Below, in pieces: positions 6,533 to 52,118 of a stretch of 64,000 nucleotides of DNA. How positions within the stretch are numbered: the stretch's first letter is position 1; the number at the start of each line of letters is the position of its first letter. The stretch is from a virus. The position numbers and the translations under genes were made by a program. The notes below the pieces were generated by a model, which worked only from the letters and a program-made list of their open reading frames with translations, had not been told where the DNA came from and searched no databases. The stretch is from positions 124,001-188,000 of the IMG/VR virus record IMGVR_UViG_3300025030_000003. One strand, written 5' to 3'.

Positions 6533-7421
6533 TAATACTTGCCCTCTTAACTACATCGTATAAAAAAACTTCAAATTGTCGGAGTTCATAATAGGAAATC
6601 AAATCTCTGTTAGGGGTTCCCCTAAATAATCTATACTCTATTCTATTATCCTTTTTAGAATATTTACATAAATCCATCAACTCTAAATAATTATCTATTA
6701 CGTCTATGACATCTAAGTATTTCTTAGCCGTGGCTTCCCATTTAGTTCCCCCAAAAGAATTAACTGTTTCTAAAAACTTCTCAGGAGTAGTAGGATTCCA
6801 TGCTTCAGCAAACAATTTTTTAAACTCTGTTTTTACAAAAGGAACAGGAGCTTTGAGATTGTCAGACTTATCCCCATCTAATATTCTAAAAGCTAATAAG
6901 TTATCAATACCTACACCAAATTTACTAAAGACTAAATTATTATCTACCAATTTAAATCCTTTATCATAATCGTTGGATACTTTAAAATCCCCGCATAACT
7001 GGAAGAAGTCTTTATCTCCTGAATATATTATTATCTCCTCATTACCCTTCTCTTTTAATTCAAAAGCTATACTGGCTATAACATCATCGGCTTCATGCTC
7101 TTCACTCTTAGCAAAAGCCACATGTTCTAAATTAGATAATATGTTTATAATATGGGAGGTATCTATATATACTTTAGTTTTATCCTTATCTCTATTAGCT
7201 TTGTAGTCTTCATTTATTTCTTTTTTTGCACACTTACCATCCAAAACAAAAATAATTTTATGTTCTGGATATTTTTTATAAAGCCTCTCCACCAAAAAAG
7301 AAAAACCTTTCAAACTTCCTACGAATAAATTTTCTCCGTCTTTTTTAATATAATGGTCCTTGAAGCCAAAATGGAAACGGTTTAAACACCACGAAAAATC
7401 TACTATAATAAACTTCCCCAA
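6525..7421 (-). CDS. 5'-3' exonuclease / flap endonuclease (T4 RNase H, T5 FEN family)
   Basis: A 298-residue FEN-family nuclease. The acidic metal-binding clusters are present: VDFSW at the N-terminus, FVLDGK, EEHEADDVIASIA, IYSGDKDFFQL and ILDGDKSDNL (H3TH region). It removes RNA primers and 5' flaps during lagging-strand synthesis. The start is TTG after a perfect AGGAGG. It is the second gene of the operon fired from 7.82 kb. Confidence 0.9.
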   Translation of the reverse strand: MGKFIIVDFSWCLNRFHFGFKDHYIKKDGENLFVGSLKGFSFLVERLYKKYPEHKIIFVLDGKCAKKEINEDYKANRDKDKTKVYIDTSHIINILSNLEHVAFAKSEEHEADDVIASIAFELKEKGNEEIIIYSGDKDFFQLCGDFKVSNDYDKGFKLVDNNLVFSKFGVGIDNLLAFRILDGDKSDNLKAPVPFVKTEFKKLFAEAWNPTTPEKFLETVNSFGGTKWEATAKKYLDVIDVIDNYLELMDLCKYSKKDNRIEYRLFRGTPNRDLISYYELRQFEVFLYDVVKRASINV

Positions 7422-25184: not shown

Positions 25185-25216
25185 ACAAAAATGGGATAGA
25201 CCTTTCGGTTATCCCT
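25182..25216 (-). terminator. Terminator-like hairpin between two late promoters
   Basis: Minus-strand GGGATA, 11-base loop, TATCCC, then ATTTTTGTTTT running into the late promoter at 25174. A second late promoter lies upstream at 25224. Confidence 0.7.
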
Positions 25217-25223
25217 TAGTAAT

Positions 25224-25234
25224 TATAATATAAA
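25224..25234 (-). promoter_or_regulatory. Putative late promoter upstream of hairpin
   Basis: Exact minus-strand TTTATATTATA followed by ATTACTAAG. Its expected transcript would begin at or just before the GGGATA hairpin. Confidence 0.5.
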
Positions 25235-41261: not shown

Positions 41262-44186
41262 TTATTTAAAGTTCCATGTTTTATTTATTTGTTCTTTTTG
41301 TTGTTGTGTTCTAGCCTGTCTCATTAATTGAGATAATCCAAGTCCCAAATCAGGACTACCTCCATCTTTGTTAGATAAATCCATATAAACTTGATTTCTG
41401 TTCATATAATCTTTAGAATTAATACATTTCCAAATACCACCACATACAGAGTCGGCAATATCCTTAGAATTATTAGATATGTGGTCTATCTTTTTATCCA
41501 AATCCCTAAGACCTAATAATTCTGTTATTAACAATTCATTTTTAACACCTATTATTTTATTAGTGTAAACTAACTCTCTCAGAGTATAGTAAGGGTCTTT
41601 AGTTCTGTCCACGGATAAGTAATCAGTTTCCACATTACTTGTTCTCAAGAACTGTCTTGTAACATCCCCTTGAAACATGTCAGTAGTTATTACTTTTATA
41701 GGATATCCCATTTTTATTAGTAAGAATAAAAAGTCTATTACTTTTATTATGTTTATTTCTTCTCCCTTTTTAGCCTCTATGCCTATAGCAAAATCTACAT
41801 AGAACATTCTCTCTCTTCTTTTTGCCCTAGGTATCTCTGGATTTTCTATAGTAGGTACTAATTCAAACTCTTCTAAGGTGCTATAGACAGAAGATAATCC
41901 AAATCTATCCTTTTTAGTAGCTATATCTAAGTGTACAAATCTAAAACTGTCTTGATGTAGAGGTCTTTTGAAGTATTCGAGATTAGTAACATAGTTTTCT
42001 AATTTATCGGAAGGGTCGCTAAAACTCATACTGATAGTATCGCTAACAAATCGGTTAGGATTCACAAATAAACTTCTAATAAGTTGTCTTGATTTAAATA
42101 AAGATACATCTGCATGAACTCTACGTCCCGCTATATCTCTTATGTTTCTTATTAAGGCTTCTTTAAACTCAGTATAATAATTATAAGGAACATCTATTAT
42201 ACTCTCTTCCATATCTGGAGTAGTTTTTTCATCATCTTCTATTACTTTAGGGTCTCTCTTAGCATCTCCCAAGAAAACTTTAAAAGTATCCTTAGTAAAA
42301 GCTCCCTTTACCTGCCAAGCCGAAAGATTATCTCGGTAGTTACCAAAAGGGTTAGATTTTACAGTCTCTATAGCAGAATTCAAGTAGTCCTGCTCATCTA
42401 CAGGAGAACTTACCAACCATAAAATACCAGGCATGAAATCGCTAAATTTATCAAACCTAGATTTTCTTCTTGTTTTAAAGAGTTGGTGAATATCTTCAGC
42501 CTTTTTAATAGCCTCTTTACCTAAATAGTAAGATACTTCGTCCATTAAACAACTAAAATTCATCTTACCTAACAAGTGGTTTATGTTAGAACCAATATTT
42601 ACTAGGATTATATCATTAATAATTACACCTTCATCGGAGGCTGTGGTTCTAGCTTTAGGGGTAGCTTTCTTCTCTATAAAATAGGGAGATGTATTTACCA
42701 TACCTAGGAATTTAGAGAAAGCAACAGAACTTCCCTGAGCTTTATCAGGTGTCATAATAGTAAAAGCAAAAGGGTCTAACTTCTTAGTCTGTAAATAATA
42801 TGTGTACGGGTCTTTTAAACACATTAATTTATACATCTCATATACCATAGATGCTATAGCTATGGTTGTGTTATGAGTAACAGTAAAATCTCCTAACATA
42901 TAAAGATGATTACCGTCTAATTCAAATCCATAATAGTCCCCCTCCCCCAAAGATTCCACTTTGAATCCTGTTTTAAGAGGGTCTTTGTTTAATTCTCTAT
43001 TGCTCATCTTTTTTCTTAATAGCACTGTGGGAATATCACACAAAGTGCCAGATATATAGACATTATAATAAGTGTCTTTAAAATTAATTTTTTTAATAGT
43101 TTTAACAGATTCTTTTAAGGAAGATTGCATCCCTAAAGACCTTGCTAAATAAACATAGTCCTCAGCTAAATCTTTATATTTAGTAGTTATGGTAATCTGC
43201 CCCCCATTATGATTCACATAGCCGTCAGAGTCTACTATCCCCGCTAATAATTTTAACCTAGATTCTTCAGAATTTTGTAAATACTCGGGTAATATTCTCT
43301 TATGCCCCGATTTAGTAGAATTTTTAATGACATTCAGAAATATATTTCTACCCGCCTTACCCGAAGTCTTTCCAGTAGTTAGTCTATATGTAGAAGACTT
43401 ATTACCCTCCTGAGAATATTTGTGTACTTCTAAACCTATAGCTTTACCGTAGTTACACCAGATATCCTCTATCTCTTTATCAGCAGTAGTAAGATAAGAA
43501 CCTTCAGTAGCACCATCTCCTATCCAAAGACCATATATGTAAGGGTCTATCTTTAATTCCTTCTTATTAAAAGAAACTTCTTTTCTGTATAATTTATATA
43601 GATTCTTAAAGTTACTACTTTTATTTATATAATCCCTCATAGATATATTCTCTATTTCATTAACTCTATCAGTTCTGCCATCGTTAGTTCTTTTTAGACT
43701 TAGTATATGGGATTCATTACATGTGAAAGACTCCCCTCCCCTATTAGGTATGATTCTATACATGTTTTCTCTACCCCTAGCAAGAGATAATACGTTTCTA
43801 GGAGTAGAATCATCCCCCATTAATTTATCTCCAACTACTACATCTTCCACATTCTTAATAGAACCGTCATACATAAGTATCTTGGTACCTAGTCCATGAC
43901 ACTTACCTACACCTATGGCGGTAGAAAGTATAAACTCGTTATACATGTTTATACAAGGATGAGGATGTATCTCTTGTAATAATTCTAACCAATAATCATA
44001 AATCTCGTCGCCTAGAGAATTTCCTAAGTAATAAGGGTCTTTTATAAAAGTAACAATATCTACAGGTTTTTCTATATAGGAATCTTCCTCAGCATAATAA
44101 ATAGCCTCTCCCTTATCCCAGATTGAGAGGTCTTTATAATTAGTGAAAACATCCTCAGTATAGTTAATTCTCTGGAGGTAAGTCAT
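41262..44186 (-). CDS. Terminase large subunit with intein in the ATPase P-loop
   Basis: A 974-residue precursor: 630 residues of terminase plus a 344-residue intein (C96 to N439). Once joined, the extein P-loop reads AIGVGK-TTIAIAS. Walker B is FSCLMDEVSYY with D549 and E550 of the precursor. A nuclease-like region with RFVHLDIATKKDRFG and VITTDMFQGD follows. It packages DNA into the prohead through the portal. It overlaps the 148-residue gene upstream, a possible small subunit. Confidence 0.9.
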   Translation of the reverse strand: MTYLQRINYTEDVFTNYKDLSIWDKGEAIYYAEEDSYIEKPVDIVTFIKDPYYLGNSLGDEIYDYWLELLQEIHPHPCINMYNEFILSTAIGVGKCHGLGTKILMYDGSIKNVEDVVVGDKLMGDDSTPRNVLSLARGRENMYRIIPNRGGESFTCNESHILSLKRTNDGRTDRVNEIENISMRDYINKSSNFKNLYKLYRKEVSFNKKELKIDPYIYGLWIGDGATEGSYLTTADKEIEDIWCNYGKAIGLEVHKYSQEGNKSSTYRLTTGKTSGKAGRNIFLNVIKNSTKSGHKRILPEYLQNSEESRLKLLAGIVDSDGYVNHNGGQITITTKYKDLAEDYVYLARSLGMQSSLKESVKTIKKINFKDTYYNVYISGTLCDIPTVLLRKKMSNRELNKDPLKTGFKVESLGEGDYYGFELDGNHLYMLGDFTVTHNTTIAIASMVYEMYKLMCLKDPYTYYLQTKKLDPFAFTIMTPDKAQGSSVAFSKFLGMVNTSPYFIEKKATPKARTTASDEGVIINDIILVNIGSNINHLLGKMNFSCLMDEVSYYLGKEAIKKAEDIHQLFKTRRKSRFDKFSDFMPGILWLVSSPVDEQDYLNSAIETVKSNPFGNYRDNLSAWQVKGAFTKDTFKVFLGDAKRDPKVIEDDEKTTPDMEESIIDVPYNYYTEFKEALIRNIRDIAGRRVHADVSLFKSRQLIRSLFVNPNRFVSDTISMSFSDPSDKLENYVTNLEYFKRPLHQDSFRFVHLDIATKKDRFGLSSVYSTLEEFELVPTIENPEIPRAKRRERMFYVDFAIGIEAKKGEEINIIKVIDFLFLLIKMGYPIKVITTDMFQGDVTRQFLRTSNVETDYLSVDRTKDPYYTLRELVYTNKIIGVKNELLITELLGLRDLDKKIDHISNNSKDIADSVCGGIWKCINSKDYMNRNQVYMDLSNKDGGSPDLGLGLSQLMRQARTQQQKEQINKTWNFK
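42870..43901 (-). mobile_element. Intein with LAGLIDADG homing endonuclease, inside terminase
   Basis: Encodes precursor residues 96-439. It begins with C96 in CHGLGTKILMYDG (splicing block A), has CNESHILSL (block B, with the conserved H), two LAGLIDADG dodecapeptides YIYGLWIGDGA and LKLLAGIVDSDGY, and ends YGFELDGNHLYMLGDFTVTHN (blocks F and G), followed by T440 as the +1 residue. All splicing residues are present, so it should be active. Insertion is between K and T of the Walker A motif. Confidence 0.93.
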
Positions 44187-44611: not shown

Positions 44612-44959
44612 TTACAAAATAATCTCCATAGAATCATTATCAATAATTTCTATAAATTCTTGGTAGATGTCTAAAGTTTTAGCTTTATCTATTTTCTTTT
44701 TAGGATTAACAGTAACCTTAGAAAATATTTCCTCGGCTTCTTGTATGAACCCGTAAAGTTTTTCCTCTTTCGGAAAACTTACTTTTTTACCAGCACACAT
44801 AAAAAAGAATTTGAAGATATCCACTCCCACATCTTTGTATATAGAATATAAAGTGGGAAAGTCTAAATTCATATTCCTACTAATATAGAACAGGATGCAA
44901 GTGGTTCTATTCACTGGTATTTTTAACGATGGTTGAATTGTTGTTTCAGCATGTTCCAT
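44612..44959 (-). CDS. Unknown protein in sigma-terminase operon
   Basis: A 115-residue protein. It contains CILFYISRNMNLDFPTLYSIYKDVGVDIFKFFF, a helical stretch with some resemblance to DNA-binding or sigma-associated proteins, but I cannot name a family. It overlaps the sigma factor gene by 37 bases and is followed by the putative small terminase. Conserved coupling with the sigma gene may mean a late-transcription co-factor; that is speculation. Confidence 0.65.
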   Translation of the reverse strand: MEHAETTIQPSLKIPVNRTTCILFYISRNMNLDFPTLYSIYKDVGVDIFKFFFMCAGKKVSFPKEEKLYGFIQEAEEIFSKVTVNPKKKIDKAKTLDIYQEFIEIIDNDSMEIIL

Positions 44960-45519
44960 AATAAATCTTTCCTCACCGCATCTAACTTATGTAACTCATT
45001 TATATCCACATTTTCAAGCTCTTTTAACTTTTCGTATTGTTTGACAATATCACAATAATACTCTATATCATCATAAGCATCGTCGTATTTTAATTTGCTA
45101 CAGTAATTCTCCACGTTATCTAAATTATCATCTTCTATCTCTTCATCTTCTAAAGAGTCATTTGAGAATAATCTTAATTCATCTTTATTTATGTACTCAA
45201 AATCTAAAGATATAGGATTTTGATTATTTATTAAACGATAATTGACTTTAGTACAATAATTTCTAACTATTGTATGAATGAAAGTTCCCAGACATCCCTT
45301 ATTAACATCATAGTTTTTTAAAACTTTTTCATAGATAACTACGAAACAATCATTAATGTTATCTTCATTAAACTGTTTCTGTAATAAGTATTTATTTAAA
45401 AGTCTTTTAACATAAGCAATTATTTGAAAATAAAATTCTTTACTACAAAGACCTTCTCTGTCATAGATATCTTGTATTTTTTTATAATTACCATATAATT
45501 TTTTTGGTGTTTCAGACAT
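44923..45519 (-). CDS. Putative phage late sigma factor (gp55-like region 2)
   Basis: A 198-residue protein. Residues about 72-100 (YDVNKGCLGTFIHTIVRNYCTKVNYR) have the sigma region 2 pattern 'fd..kG.f.tfi...vrN', which binds RNA polymerase and melts the -10 element. Upstream helices (ILxx YVKRLLNKYLLQKQFNEDNIND) fit region 1.2/2.1. A clear region 4 is missing and the C-terminus is acidic, as in T4 gp55, which recognises only a -10 box. About 20 extended -10-like motifs in the window are good candidates for its sites. Transcribed from the sigma70-type promoter at 47.37 kb through the TOPRIM gene. Confidence 0.7.
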   Translation of the reverse strand: MSETPKKLYGNYKKIQDIYDREGLCSKEFYFQIIAYVKRLLNKYLLQKQFNEDNINDCFVVIYEKVLKNYDVNKGCLGTFIHTIVRNYCTKVNYRLINNQNPISLDFEYINKDELRLFSNDSLEDEEIEDDNLDNVENYCSKLKYDDAYDDIEYYCDIVKQYEKLKELENVDINELHKLDAVRKDLLWNMLKQQFNHR

Positions 45520-47399: not shown

Positions 47400-47871
47400 A
47401 CTACATAAATATATTTAATTTTAATTAGAATGAGGCAAATATTACAAAGATGCTAATATGACAGAGTGTGGTCAATGTGCAAAGGTAATTAAGCCTAGAT
47501 TCAATGATAGCAAGATACAATTACTACTATGTAAGTTTGTATAGTTTCGTTTCTTGTTATTAAGATTAATGGTACGGGATTTCCATATACAATCAAAGTT
47601 TACTCTTCTTAACAGGGTTAAATTACCCCATTCTCCTCAAAGAGAGGTAACTATGAACGTGCTTTTTAACCTATTAGGGTAACAGGTCTGGGCTTTAAAA
47701 GAACAACTGTATGGGAAACTTCTGTAACTATTTAAGTGAGATTGCTTTTTTATCAGCGTTTCACTCAGTACATTCACTCTATTAGAGTGGTTTAACAATT
47801 TATTTACAGGGAGACTTCGTTGTTGCATACAGAAGAGTATAAACTAATTTCTTCAGCAATTTACCCATCTG
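47400..47871 (-). ncRNA. Putative large structured non-coding RNA
   Basis: This is the only gene-free stretch over 300 bases. On the minus strand a near-consensus promoter (47877-47905) starts a transcript near 47870. Complementary segments support folding: AGAAGAGTATAAAC at 47831-47844 (plus-strand reading) against GTTTACTCTTCT at 47598-47609, a 12-bp helix with a 2-base bulge that closes about 220 bases. Inside are a 6-bp helix (47804-47809 with 47722-47727), a 6-bp hairpin (47775-47789), a 5-bp arm (47735-47739 with 47761-47765), and a competing 7-bp pairing (47826-47832 with 47707-47713) that could form a pseudoknot. The 63-codon frame within it looks like a by-product. The 3' end is not defined. 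Large phage RNAs such as ROOL or GOLLD are candidates to test. Confidence 0.5.
47511..47570. repeat. 60-bp exact direct repeat, copy 1
   Basis: Identical over 60 bases to 47930-47989. Lies in the 3' part of the putative RNA. Minus-strand pairing CAAG...ATACAA with TTGTAT-CTTG gives a bulged hairpin. Confidence 0.95.
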
Positions 47872-47905: not shown

Positions 47906-47929
47906 GATTTTTAATTCCTTCAGTTTTGA

Positions 47930-47989
47930 CAAGATACAATTACTACTATGTAAGTTTGTATAGTTTCGTTTCTTGTTATTAAGATTAAT
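47930..47989. repeat. 60-bp exact direct repeat, copy 2
   Basis: Second copy of the repeat, 419 bases from copy 1. It lies downstream of the gene at 48.03-48.43 kb and just upstream of the RNA promoter. Confidence 0.95.
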
Positions 47990-50552: not shown

Positions 50553-50581
50553 TTGACAAAACATTAACAATATGTTACAAT
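50553..50581 (+). promoter_or_regulatory. Sigma70-type promoter, rightward half of a divergent pair
   Basis: Plus-strand TTGACA, 17-bp spacer ending TGT, TACAAT. Starts the plus-strand island. Confidence 0.8.
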
Positions 50582-50613: not shown

Positions 50614-51270
50614 ATGATTTATTTTTTAGATAGTAATCCAGAATTAGCAGGAATATACCTATCAGACAAGCATTTATCCTGTCAGTTGGGTAGTGCATGT
50701 ACTGTTATTTGCACAGTATTAGAAAATTATACTGATTCTTCCATGCCCCAAAAAGTAATAAATAAAAGTAATGCCGTAGTTAGCTGGGCTAGTATTTCTA
50801 AATCTAATTTTGAGTGGTTAGTAGAGTACGCTAAGTCAGTACAACGTCATTTCTATACTATTTATGGTAAATATCATAATACTACCATAGACCTATCCTC
50901 CATAACAGTTCCAGAATTGCCTAAAGGAGGACTTATGGAATTTCCTCAGTTACTTCCAGATAGATATAAAATGGAAGGGGATTCTGTAGAAGCATATAGA
51001 AATTATTACGTTATGGAAAAAGCTAAAATATCTAACTATAGACAAAAAGCTCCCGACTGGTTTATGGCTAAACTAGACGAGACCCAAAGAACACTATATA
51101 TGGATTATTTTGAACATATAGGAACTAACTTAAGAATATACAGGGATAGTGATACTGGAATAGTTATACAAAAAAAATTAGAGGGTAGTTGGGTATCGTT
51201 GGGTAGCTTAACCCTAGAAGAACAGATATTGATTGAGAGGATACTAGATAATGGGTTTAGGGAAGGATAG
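50614..51270 (+). CDS. Phage protein of a widespread unassigned family (YFLD...YRxYYxxEK type)
   Basis: A 218-residue protein. The N-terminus (IYFLDSNPELAGIYLSDKH) and the middle (FPQLLPDRYKMEGDSVEAYRNYYVMEKAK, read in two parts) match a family I recall from many phage genomes as a conserved hypothetical; it typically has an N-terminal 'D-P-xx-aA-x-L-x-D-K-H' and a C-terminal 'YRxYY' motif. No function is established to my knowledge. AAGGAAAC precedes the ATG. It is one of only three plus-strand genes and is probably early. Confidence 0.6.
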   Translation: MIYFLDSNPELAGIYLSDKHLSCQLGSACTVICTVLENYTDSSMPQKVINKSNAVVSWASISKSNFEWLVEYAKSVQRHFYTIYGKYHNTTIDLSSITVPELPKGGLMEFPQLLPDRYKMEGDSVEAYRNYYVMEKAKISNYRQKAPDWFMAKLDETQRTLYMDYFEHIGTNLRIYRDSDTGIVIQKKLEGSWVSLGSLTLEEQILIERILDNGFREG

Positions 51271-51436
51271 CCTAGAGGAACTGGTTTTTGAACTTTACCA
51301 GTCGGGGGAAGATAGGGAAGAGTTATTGAAGTCTTTGATTTGTACTTTTATTAACTTATCAAATATAGATAAGAGTTCAGAAGTACAATTAACTGCAAAA
51401 AGTTTATTAGAGACAGCAAAAAATTTAATACTATAA
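51251..51436 (+). CDS. Small acidic helical protein
   Basis: A 61-residue protein overlapping the end of the previous gene by 20 bases. It starts MGLGKDSLEELVFELYQSGE and is helical and acidic. GAGAGG lies upstream of the ATG. It is probably co-translated with its neighbour. Function unknown. Confidence 0.65.
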   Translation: MGLGKDSLEELVFELYQSGEDREELLKSLICTFINLSNIDKSSEVQLTAKSLLETAKNLIL

Positions 51437-51447
51437 GAAAATTGTAT

Positions 51448-51458
51448 TTTATATTATA
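51448..51458 (+). promoter_or_regulatory. Late-promoter motif on the plus strand
   Basis: Exact TTTATATTATA followed by ATTGAA; the only copy I found in this orientation. It lies in the gap after the plus-strand genes, not before any gene, and flanking AAATTGTAT / ATACAATTT arms form an inverted repeat around it. Confidence 0.55.
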
Positions 51459-51464
51459 ATTGAA

Positions 51465-51530
51465 TACTATATACAATTTACTATGAAGTTTTTCTGAGCA
51501 GGTTTCCTCCTTTACTGCTCAGTTTTTATT
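51465..51530 (+). ncRNA. Putative small RNA displaying an anti-Shine-Dalgarno sequence
   Basis: Predicted transcript of about 65 bases from the plus-strand late motif to the hairpin terminator. The hairpin (CTGAGCAG / CTGCTCAG) has a 13-base loop containing CCTCCTTT at 51506-51513. This equals the conserved 3' end of Bacillota 16S rRNA, which pairs with Shine-Dalgarno sites. A loop with that sequence could bind AAAGGAGG sites in mRNA and block initiation. It has no useful frame (ATG-AAG-TTT-TTC-TGA only). The RNA may instead be just the 3' end of the plus-strand genes. Confidence 0.45.
51494..51527 (+). terminator. Intrinsic terminator with CCTCCTTT loop
   Basis: Plus-strand 8-bp stem CTGAGCAG / CTGCTCAG followed by TTTTTATTT. 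It ends the plus-strand island and the putative small RNA. The minus strand lacks a T run. Confidence 0.9.
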
Positions 51531-51552
51531 TGTTTTATTATATAATACTGAA

Positions 51553-51576
51553 ATAGTGCCTTTATAAAGGCACTAT
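51553..51576. terminator. Perfect 24-bp palindrome between convergent genes
   Basis: ATAGTGCCTTTA and its exact complement. It lies downstream of the leftward gene at 51.6-52.1 kb, with only a weak T run (ATTTCAGTATT) on the minus strand, so termination is likely but not certain. Confidence 0.5.
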
Positions 51577-51617: not shown

Positions 51618-52073
51618 TTAGTCTGTTAATTTTAATAGTATCTGATTACAAGTATTTCTTATCTCTGATATAGAAATCTCTAGTTTTTCATTAGTCTTTG
51701 CTTGACTGTCCAAGAACATCTTAAACTCTTGTCTTAGTAAATATCTTTGGTCATTGTGTTCTAGGTTAGTATTTTTACATTTTATAGTATGGTTTTCTAT
51801 TAAATTTTCTGTTTCTTCTAATATCTCTTCTTTTAATTCTTTTTTTAATTCTTCTTTACAATCTTTAATCTTTTTATCTATCTCGGTACTTACCCCTTTT
51901 TGTAAATTTTCTTCATAATATTTTTTAATTATGTCTTCTATTACTTTTTTAAATATCCACTTACCTGCATATCTTATAATTAATACTATAATACCGATGC
52001 TACTAGCGTAGTAGGCAGGTATGCTTAAAAAGGACAAGCAATCTTTTAATGTTGTAGCACCCAAATCTATCAT
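51618..52073 (-). CDS. Single-span membrane protein with coiled coil
   Basis: A 151-residue protein. Residues 18-37 (AYYASSIGIIVLIIRYAGKW) are a likely transmembrane helix. Residues 50-105 form a charged coiled coil (KKIKDCKEELKKELKEEILEE). The order fits an N-out membrane anchor with a cytoplasmic coil. A holin, spanin-like or lysis regulator role is possible, as it has a late promoter near fibre genes. No specific family recognised. Confidence 0.7.
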   Translation of the reverse strand: MIDLGATTLKDCLSFLSIPAYYASSIGIIVLIIRYAGKWIFKKVIEDIIKKYYEENLQKGVSTEIDKKIKDCKEELKKELKEEILEETENLIENHTIKCKNTNLEHNDQRYLLRQEFKMFLDSQAKTNEKLEISISEIRNTCNQILLKLTD

Positions 52074-52107: not shown

Positions 52108-52118
52108 TATAATATAAA
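52108..52118 (-). promoter_or_regulatory. Putative late promoter
   Basis: Exact minus-strand TTTATATTATA followed by TTTAGG, 35 bases before the ATG at 52073. Confidence 0.6.

Follow-up and report, generated by a model that had tools for sequence, protein, structure and literature searches.

A predicted late small RNA with an anti-Shine-Dalgarno terminator loop in a large uncultured phage

The locus and its surroundings

The DNA analysed here (the window, 64,000 nt) is part of a 190,151-b record from a large, uncultured phage with T4-type head genes, in which 194 of the 200 long ORFs lie on the minus strand. The element under study sits between two converging gene blocks. On its upstream side, a sigma70-like early promoter (TTGACA-17-TACAAT with an extended TG; 50553–50581, plus strand), with 11 of 12 matches and the same sequence in the close relatives L002 and L003, precedes a pair of plus-strand genes. 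These encode a 218-aa protein of the phrog_624 family ('DNA binding protein'; 50614–51270), a neighbour that lies outside the small RNA, and a 61-aa ORF (51251–51436) that is the final gene ahead of the element and has a 63-aa counterpart in contig L028. From the other side the gene of a small 151-aa protein converges on the minus strand (51618–52073) with a late box of its own (52108–52118, minus strand), and between this gene and the element lies a palindromic hairpin, ATAGTGCCTTTATAAAGGCACTAT (51553–51576), in which changes between relatives are compensated.

The element opens with a late promoter box, TTTATATTATA (51448–51458, plus strand), an exact match that is invariant in the three genomes compared. 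A 9-bp inverted repeat flanks the box, with left arm AAATTGTAT (51439–51447, plus strand) and right arm ATACAATTT (51471–51479, plus strand); the left arm is retained apart from a single 1-nt deletion in L003, and the repeat may be a chance product of AT-rich DNA. If transcription starts about one helical turn past the box, as is the rule for T4 late promoters (PMC2988020), the small RNA would have a 5' leader at 51463–51493 (plus strand). The first-pass annotation had described a terminator shortly after the box with no gene between, and both points hold: starting 35 nt past the box there is a hairpin (51494–51522, plus strand) with a perfect 8-bp stem, whose arms are CTGAGCAG (51494–51501) and CTGCTCAG (51515–51522), and a 13-nt loop, GTTTCCTCCTTTA (51502–51514), while from box to terminator the plus strand has no ORF of at least 40 aa, the sole ORF in the gap between box and hairpin being one of four codons, ATG AAG TTT TTC TGA. 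The hairpin is followed by a U-rich tract, TTTTTATTTG (51523–51532, plus strand), which is the predicted 3' end.

Inside the loop lies the anti-Shine-Dalgarno (anti-SD) octamer CCTCCTTT (51506–51513, plus strand). It had been described as the 3' tail of Bacillota 16S rRNA; the octamer is indeed present, but it is not specific to that phylum, the same 16S tail being common to many phyla. Nor is a Bacillota host supported: the named phages that come closest in capsid and protease infect Proteobacteria, at only 31–37% identity; host-identification searches found no close named phage. By itself the octamer is not rare (5 seen versus 3.4 expected in the 64-kb window); naively, about 0.001 occurrences would be expected inside the roughly 27 terminator loops. 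CCTCC occurs at a single site in the element, with no additional CU-rich sites of the kind found in loop A and the linker of LhrC. The predicted fold is stable (MFE -13.2 kcal/mol, z -2.85) and leaves the entire loop unpaired, and a loop of 13 nt is unusual, since the loops of most other terminators identified in the record measure 3–8 nt.

Elsewhere in this phage, the gene of the large terminase subunit (window 41262–44186, minus strand) carries an apparent intein-like insertion of Hint and homing endonuclease type (Pfam Hom_end_hint, Hom_end and LAGLIDADG_3). The phage also encodes a permuted tmRNA (RF04321; 98.2 bits against a cut-off of 47). It lies at L016:11295–11496 (minus strand), which is record ~71295–71496 (minus strand) and thus outside the window, ends a cluster of 15 tRNAs and has the predicted tag GNNTVSLDFGRKMALVA. 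There is also a 71-nt direct repeat (window 47500–47570 and 47919–47989; 93% identical, 419 nt apart) in about 680 nt that hold no convincing gene; both copies are matched at 96–98% in a close relative, and the repeat had no match in Rfam.

Conservation of the element and its promoter

Conservation was assessed in an alignment of three genomes, namely the window and the IMG/VR contigs L002 and L003, all of them close relatives. In the stretch that opens immediately upstream of the box and closes with the U-tract, 1 of 95 columns varies, compared with 31 of 237 (about 13%) in the adjoining coding flank (P ~2.5e-5). Within the element, the hairpin is invariant (0/29 positions variable), including every one of the 13 loop positions, and the stretch at 51459–51493 has a single variable position in 35. 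Conservation stops sharply at the U-tract: the 31 nt past the terminator hold 10 variable columns and 2 gapped ones. Such constancy is not a general property of terminators, because five of six others in the window are changed in loop or stem in one relative, the sixth differing in its flanks, and because the palindrome at 51553–51576 has itself changed with compensation. The level reached is high, not unique, since equally conserved 95-nt stretches make up 1.2% of positions, and many of these stretches coincide with coding sequence or late promoters.

G004, a relative at greater distance (74% identity in the major capsid protein, 48% in the 218-aa gene), has the same genes converging across a gap of only 43 nt, from which the whole element is absent; nor was a terminator with such an anti-SD loop found anywhere in the G004 record. 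The element is thus confined to one lineage, either by gain there or by loss in G004. The first-pass annotation had named conservation of stem without loop as grounds for rejecting its reading; in the related phages, all close relatives, loop and stem are both invariant. This places loop conservation over a short evolutionary span, since the three genomes are close and the distant one lacks the element. As a pattern in aligned sequence, the joint conservation of predicted promoter, RNA and terminator as one unit is nevertheless strong evidence that the element is real.

The box had been called the only plus-strand copy of TTTATATTATA, which is true of the window and not of the whole record, where a second copy lies at record position 2750. 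Eighteen boxes preceding minus-strand genes define the late pattern TTTATATTATA-WWTAGR, against which the 51448 box scores 16.6 (training-set range 12.7–26.8); it matches the boxes that precede structural genes on the minus strand and lacks the usual downstream TAG, with ATTGAA in place of WWTAGR. In a simulated genome about one plus-strand site scoring as well is expected by chance, so that the promoter alone is weak evidence and the claim rests on its conservation. By match, score and conservation together, the proposed late promoter is credible as a prediction from sequence.

The phage box, TTTATATTATA, differs from the T4 late promoter consensus, TATAAATA, and the phage candidate for a late sigma is weakly recognised: it is a 198-aa, weakly sigma-like protein (44923–45519, minus strand; phrog_1740 RNA polymerase sigma factor, E=0.0052) that might read the box and for which tblastn gave no phage match. 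The listed upstream stretches of the late boxes show no -35-like element, and the positions immediately upstream of the box carry little information. In these respects the phage, which shares T4-type head genes, resembles T4, whose gp55-dependent late promoters have an AT-only box located roughly one helical turn upstream of the start and no conserved -35 (PMC2988020). At window 25190–25234 (minus strand) a second late-like box leads directly, without an intervening gene, into a hairpin and T-run, and another late box comes next.

Possible action and competing readings

With its own promoter, a short leader and a terminator bearing an anti-SD loop, the element has the layout of a small RNA, and the cassette is probably a small RNA gene. 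In the mechanism that we propose, the phage late RNA polymerase would start just past the box at 51448–51458, presumably late in infection, and would stop at the hairpin to yield a transcript of some 65 nt that runs approximately from 51464 to 51530. Its terminator loop, predicted by folding to show CCUCCUUU unpaired, would pair in trans with a limited number of mRNAs, host or phage early, at their purine-rich Shine-Dalgarno regions, and this pairing would block 30S binding and possibly expose these mRNAs to RNase. That a stand-alone late small RNA acts in this way, on selected mRNAs through its loop, is the reading that we favour, with the balance for and against it about even. If real, it would mean that a lytic T4-like phage controls late translation by a small RNA that borrows the recognition sequence of the ribosome; the mechanism is well known for bacterial small RNAs, and as a late phage function we found no description of it.

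The search for targets in the phage genome yielded no convincing conserved target among its start regions. The loop fits all phage start regions much as shuffled loops do, and complementarity of the whole RNA to the phage is below the shuffled mean. At the start of the DNA-ligase gene (record 120043) there is an 11-nt match, the query having no alignment in the close relative. Most AAAGGAGG sites drift between relatives; strongly loop-complementary sites are kept with at least 9 pairs in only two of nine aligned cases, 38622 (inside a minus-strand gene) and AAAGGAGGACTTATG (in the 218-aa gene). The best conserved complementary site, AAAGGAGGA, lies in the 218-aa gene at a distance of 570 nt upstream and is kept in the three genomes; here AAAGGAGG (50923–50930, plus strand), followed by ACTTATG, is a candidate target in cis or trans, with a loop complementarity of 10 bp in this phage and 9 bp in the relatives. 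Candidate targets at record positions 7405, 33624, 45061 and 138911 were rejected on drift in the relative. Avoidance of strong SD sequences was also discarded as a signature, usage being the same as in the relative without the element.

It is doubtful that the hairpin is a plain terminator containing CCTCCTTT by accident, behind a chance or noise promoter and with a loop devoid of function. In an AT-rich genome a plus-strand box this good arises about once by chance, the late-like box directly before a terminator at 25190–25234 (minus strand) shows that such juxtapositions occur, and in a bacterium (L128) a similar loop terminates an operon; yet all 13 loop bases are invariant and the leader is nearly so while other terminators drift, and the unit at 25190–25234 is less conserved than the element, its flanks and box region at 25232 varying. 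Distinctly improbable, in our judgement, is a role in transcription insulation, by which a short late transcript and its terminator would separate converging late and early transcription or serve as antisense to minus-strand read-through. The position of the element exactly between converging operons, the minus-strand gene having its own late promoter, would suit such a role; it would not require an invariant loop or leader, however, and G004 has the same genes converging 43 nt apart without any such element. A promoter and short transcript in an intergenic gap also recall T4 origins with short promoter transcripts, but a transcript-primed replication origin is very improbable, there being no GC-skew reversal around 51.4 kb, and T4 replication origins using middle rather than late promoters.

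The first-pass annotation suggested that the RNA titrates SD sites, shutting off host or early mRNAs, or mimics 16S rRNA. Taken as a global switch, in which an abundant late RNA would shut off host translation, this fares no better than insulation, even though the loop holds an exact anti-SD octamer. The phage itself would be partly spared, seldom using AAGGAGG (4 of 337 genes), and a betaproteobacterial small RNA family, whose Rfam consensus has CUCC-rich segments, is reported to be toxic to E. coli cells that receive it on a cloning vector (PMC4603805). General titration is nevertheless unlikely, because phage starts are not especially complementary to the loop and because the relative without the element is equally sparing of AAGGAGG (4 of 256), so that there is no matching adaptation. 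Moreover, an anti-SD copy would presumably have to compete with very many ribosomes, and nothing of 16S helix 45 is copied. What survives of the earlier claim is a unit conserved as a whole, whose anti-SD loop does not vary and is predicted to be unpaired, and whose late promoter is credible. The main rival, which we still regard as unlikely, is that the hairpin ends the early operon 50614–51436 transcribed from the 50553 promoter, and that its loop acts as a 3'-UTR element, in cis or trans, on AAAGGAGGACUUAUG in the 218-aa gene, much as the icaR 3'-UTR acts on its own SD (PMC3868564). A strong sigma70-like promoter does lie upstream, no other terminator was found to end that operon, and AAAGGAGGA is kept in 3/3 genomes while most such sites drift; the internal AAAGGAGG encodes Lys-Gly-Gly, however, so its conservation may be coding, and a near-invariant late box and 35-nt leader between stop codon and hairpin would go unexplained.

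Similar loops and known small-RNA systems

The exact core of the element was not found in bacterial genomes, where a relaxed pattern gave 10 matches, about the number estimated by chance, including one real terminator, that of L128. In viral contigs, the box and CCTCCTTT at flexible distance occur together at 64 loci, among which only the two known relatives have a comparable terminator hairpin, L112 having a weak 6-bp one. A scan of viral contigs for TTTCCTCCTTT shortly before T6 gave at least 120 contigs; among the 120 listed, 7 hold the motif in a terminator hairpin versus 0.9 expected from shuffled upstream arms, and these 7, among the matches listed, fall into about four lineages. The count comes from the anti-SD loop scan alone, and conservation of the loop among the 7 proves nothing, because they were found by loop sequence. 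One of the lineages has its terminator between genes that resemble gp32 and uvsX of T4-like phages, names given by reading the sequences rather than by family search. In L142, L170, L138 and L247, terminators with the loops TTTCCTCCTTTTT or TTTCCTCCTTTT follow the gp32-like gene and directly precede the SD of the uvsX-like one, and their stems differ between contigs with pairing kept. Another viral contig, L122 (3964–4033, minus strand), has two CCTC-type hairpins with weak matches to RF02278 (31.6 bits, cut-off 50) and ar14 (26.0 bits).

It is conceivable, though we think it rather unlikely, that terminators with anti-SD loops of about 13 nt are a recurrent translational switch of phages, as short RNAs or as 3' ends, that arose several times in unrelated phages: under a late promoter here, between gene 32-like and uvsX-like genes in T4-like phages, and in a form resembling cuckoo or toxic RNAs in L122. 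Further such terminators in unrelated viral contigs would make this a searchable and testable class.

No Rfam family matched at the element. Its best Rfam small-RNA alignment, on the plus strand, is to LhrC (RF00616; 16.8 bits, E=1.5), far short of the gathering cut-off of 110, and ar14 (RF02344) and RF02278 stayed without a match when E values up to 10 were admitted. RsaE/RoxS, FsrA, CsfG and RsaA of Gram-positive bacteria are longer than the element; they share a C-rich motif with it but are chromosomal, with a UCCC-type motif, and none of them has a Rfam match at the element. RepG of Helicobacter acts through a C/U-rich terminator loop. RoxS, FsrA and RsaA act on target mRNAs via the C-rich motif (PMC8216469, PMC3961350), the apical C-rich loops of Xanthomonas sX13 act against G-rich motifs near starts (PMC3771888), and RepG targets a G-repeat in the leader of tlpB (PMC8295292). 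Unlike the element, sX13 and RepG target G-repeats rather than AAAGGAGG, and neither is from a phage. The alphaproteobacterial ar14 or 'cuckoo' RNAs (NfeR1; RF02344) likewise have an anti-SD motif, CCUCCUCCC, in unpaired hairpin regions (PMC10746234), but with three hairpins and a different, longer motif, while the betaproteobacterial toxic RNA (RF02278) is also short, with a CUCC-rich hairpin and a terminator, and differs in having two hairpins.

As in the functional class of small RNAs that block SD sites with C-rich loops, the element has its own promoter and terminator, both predicted and conserved, and a conserved anti-SD motif that the predicted fold leaves accessible. Its closest working counterpart is LhrC of Listeria, whose CU-rich terminator loop binds lapB mRNA near the SD and whose binding is weakened by loop mutations (PMC4132741); ar14, RsaE/RoxS and sX13 follow the same working principle, none being a family match. 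LhrC and the element have in common a terminator hairpin, a loop of about 13 nt and a pyrimidine anti-SD motif, whereas LhrC is chromosomal, about 111 nt long and has three CU-rich sites, and the element, from a phage, would offer a single site in an RNA of about 65 nt.
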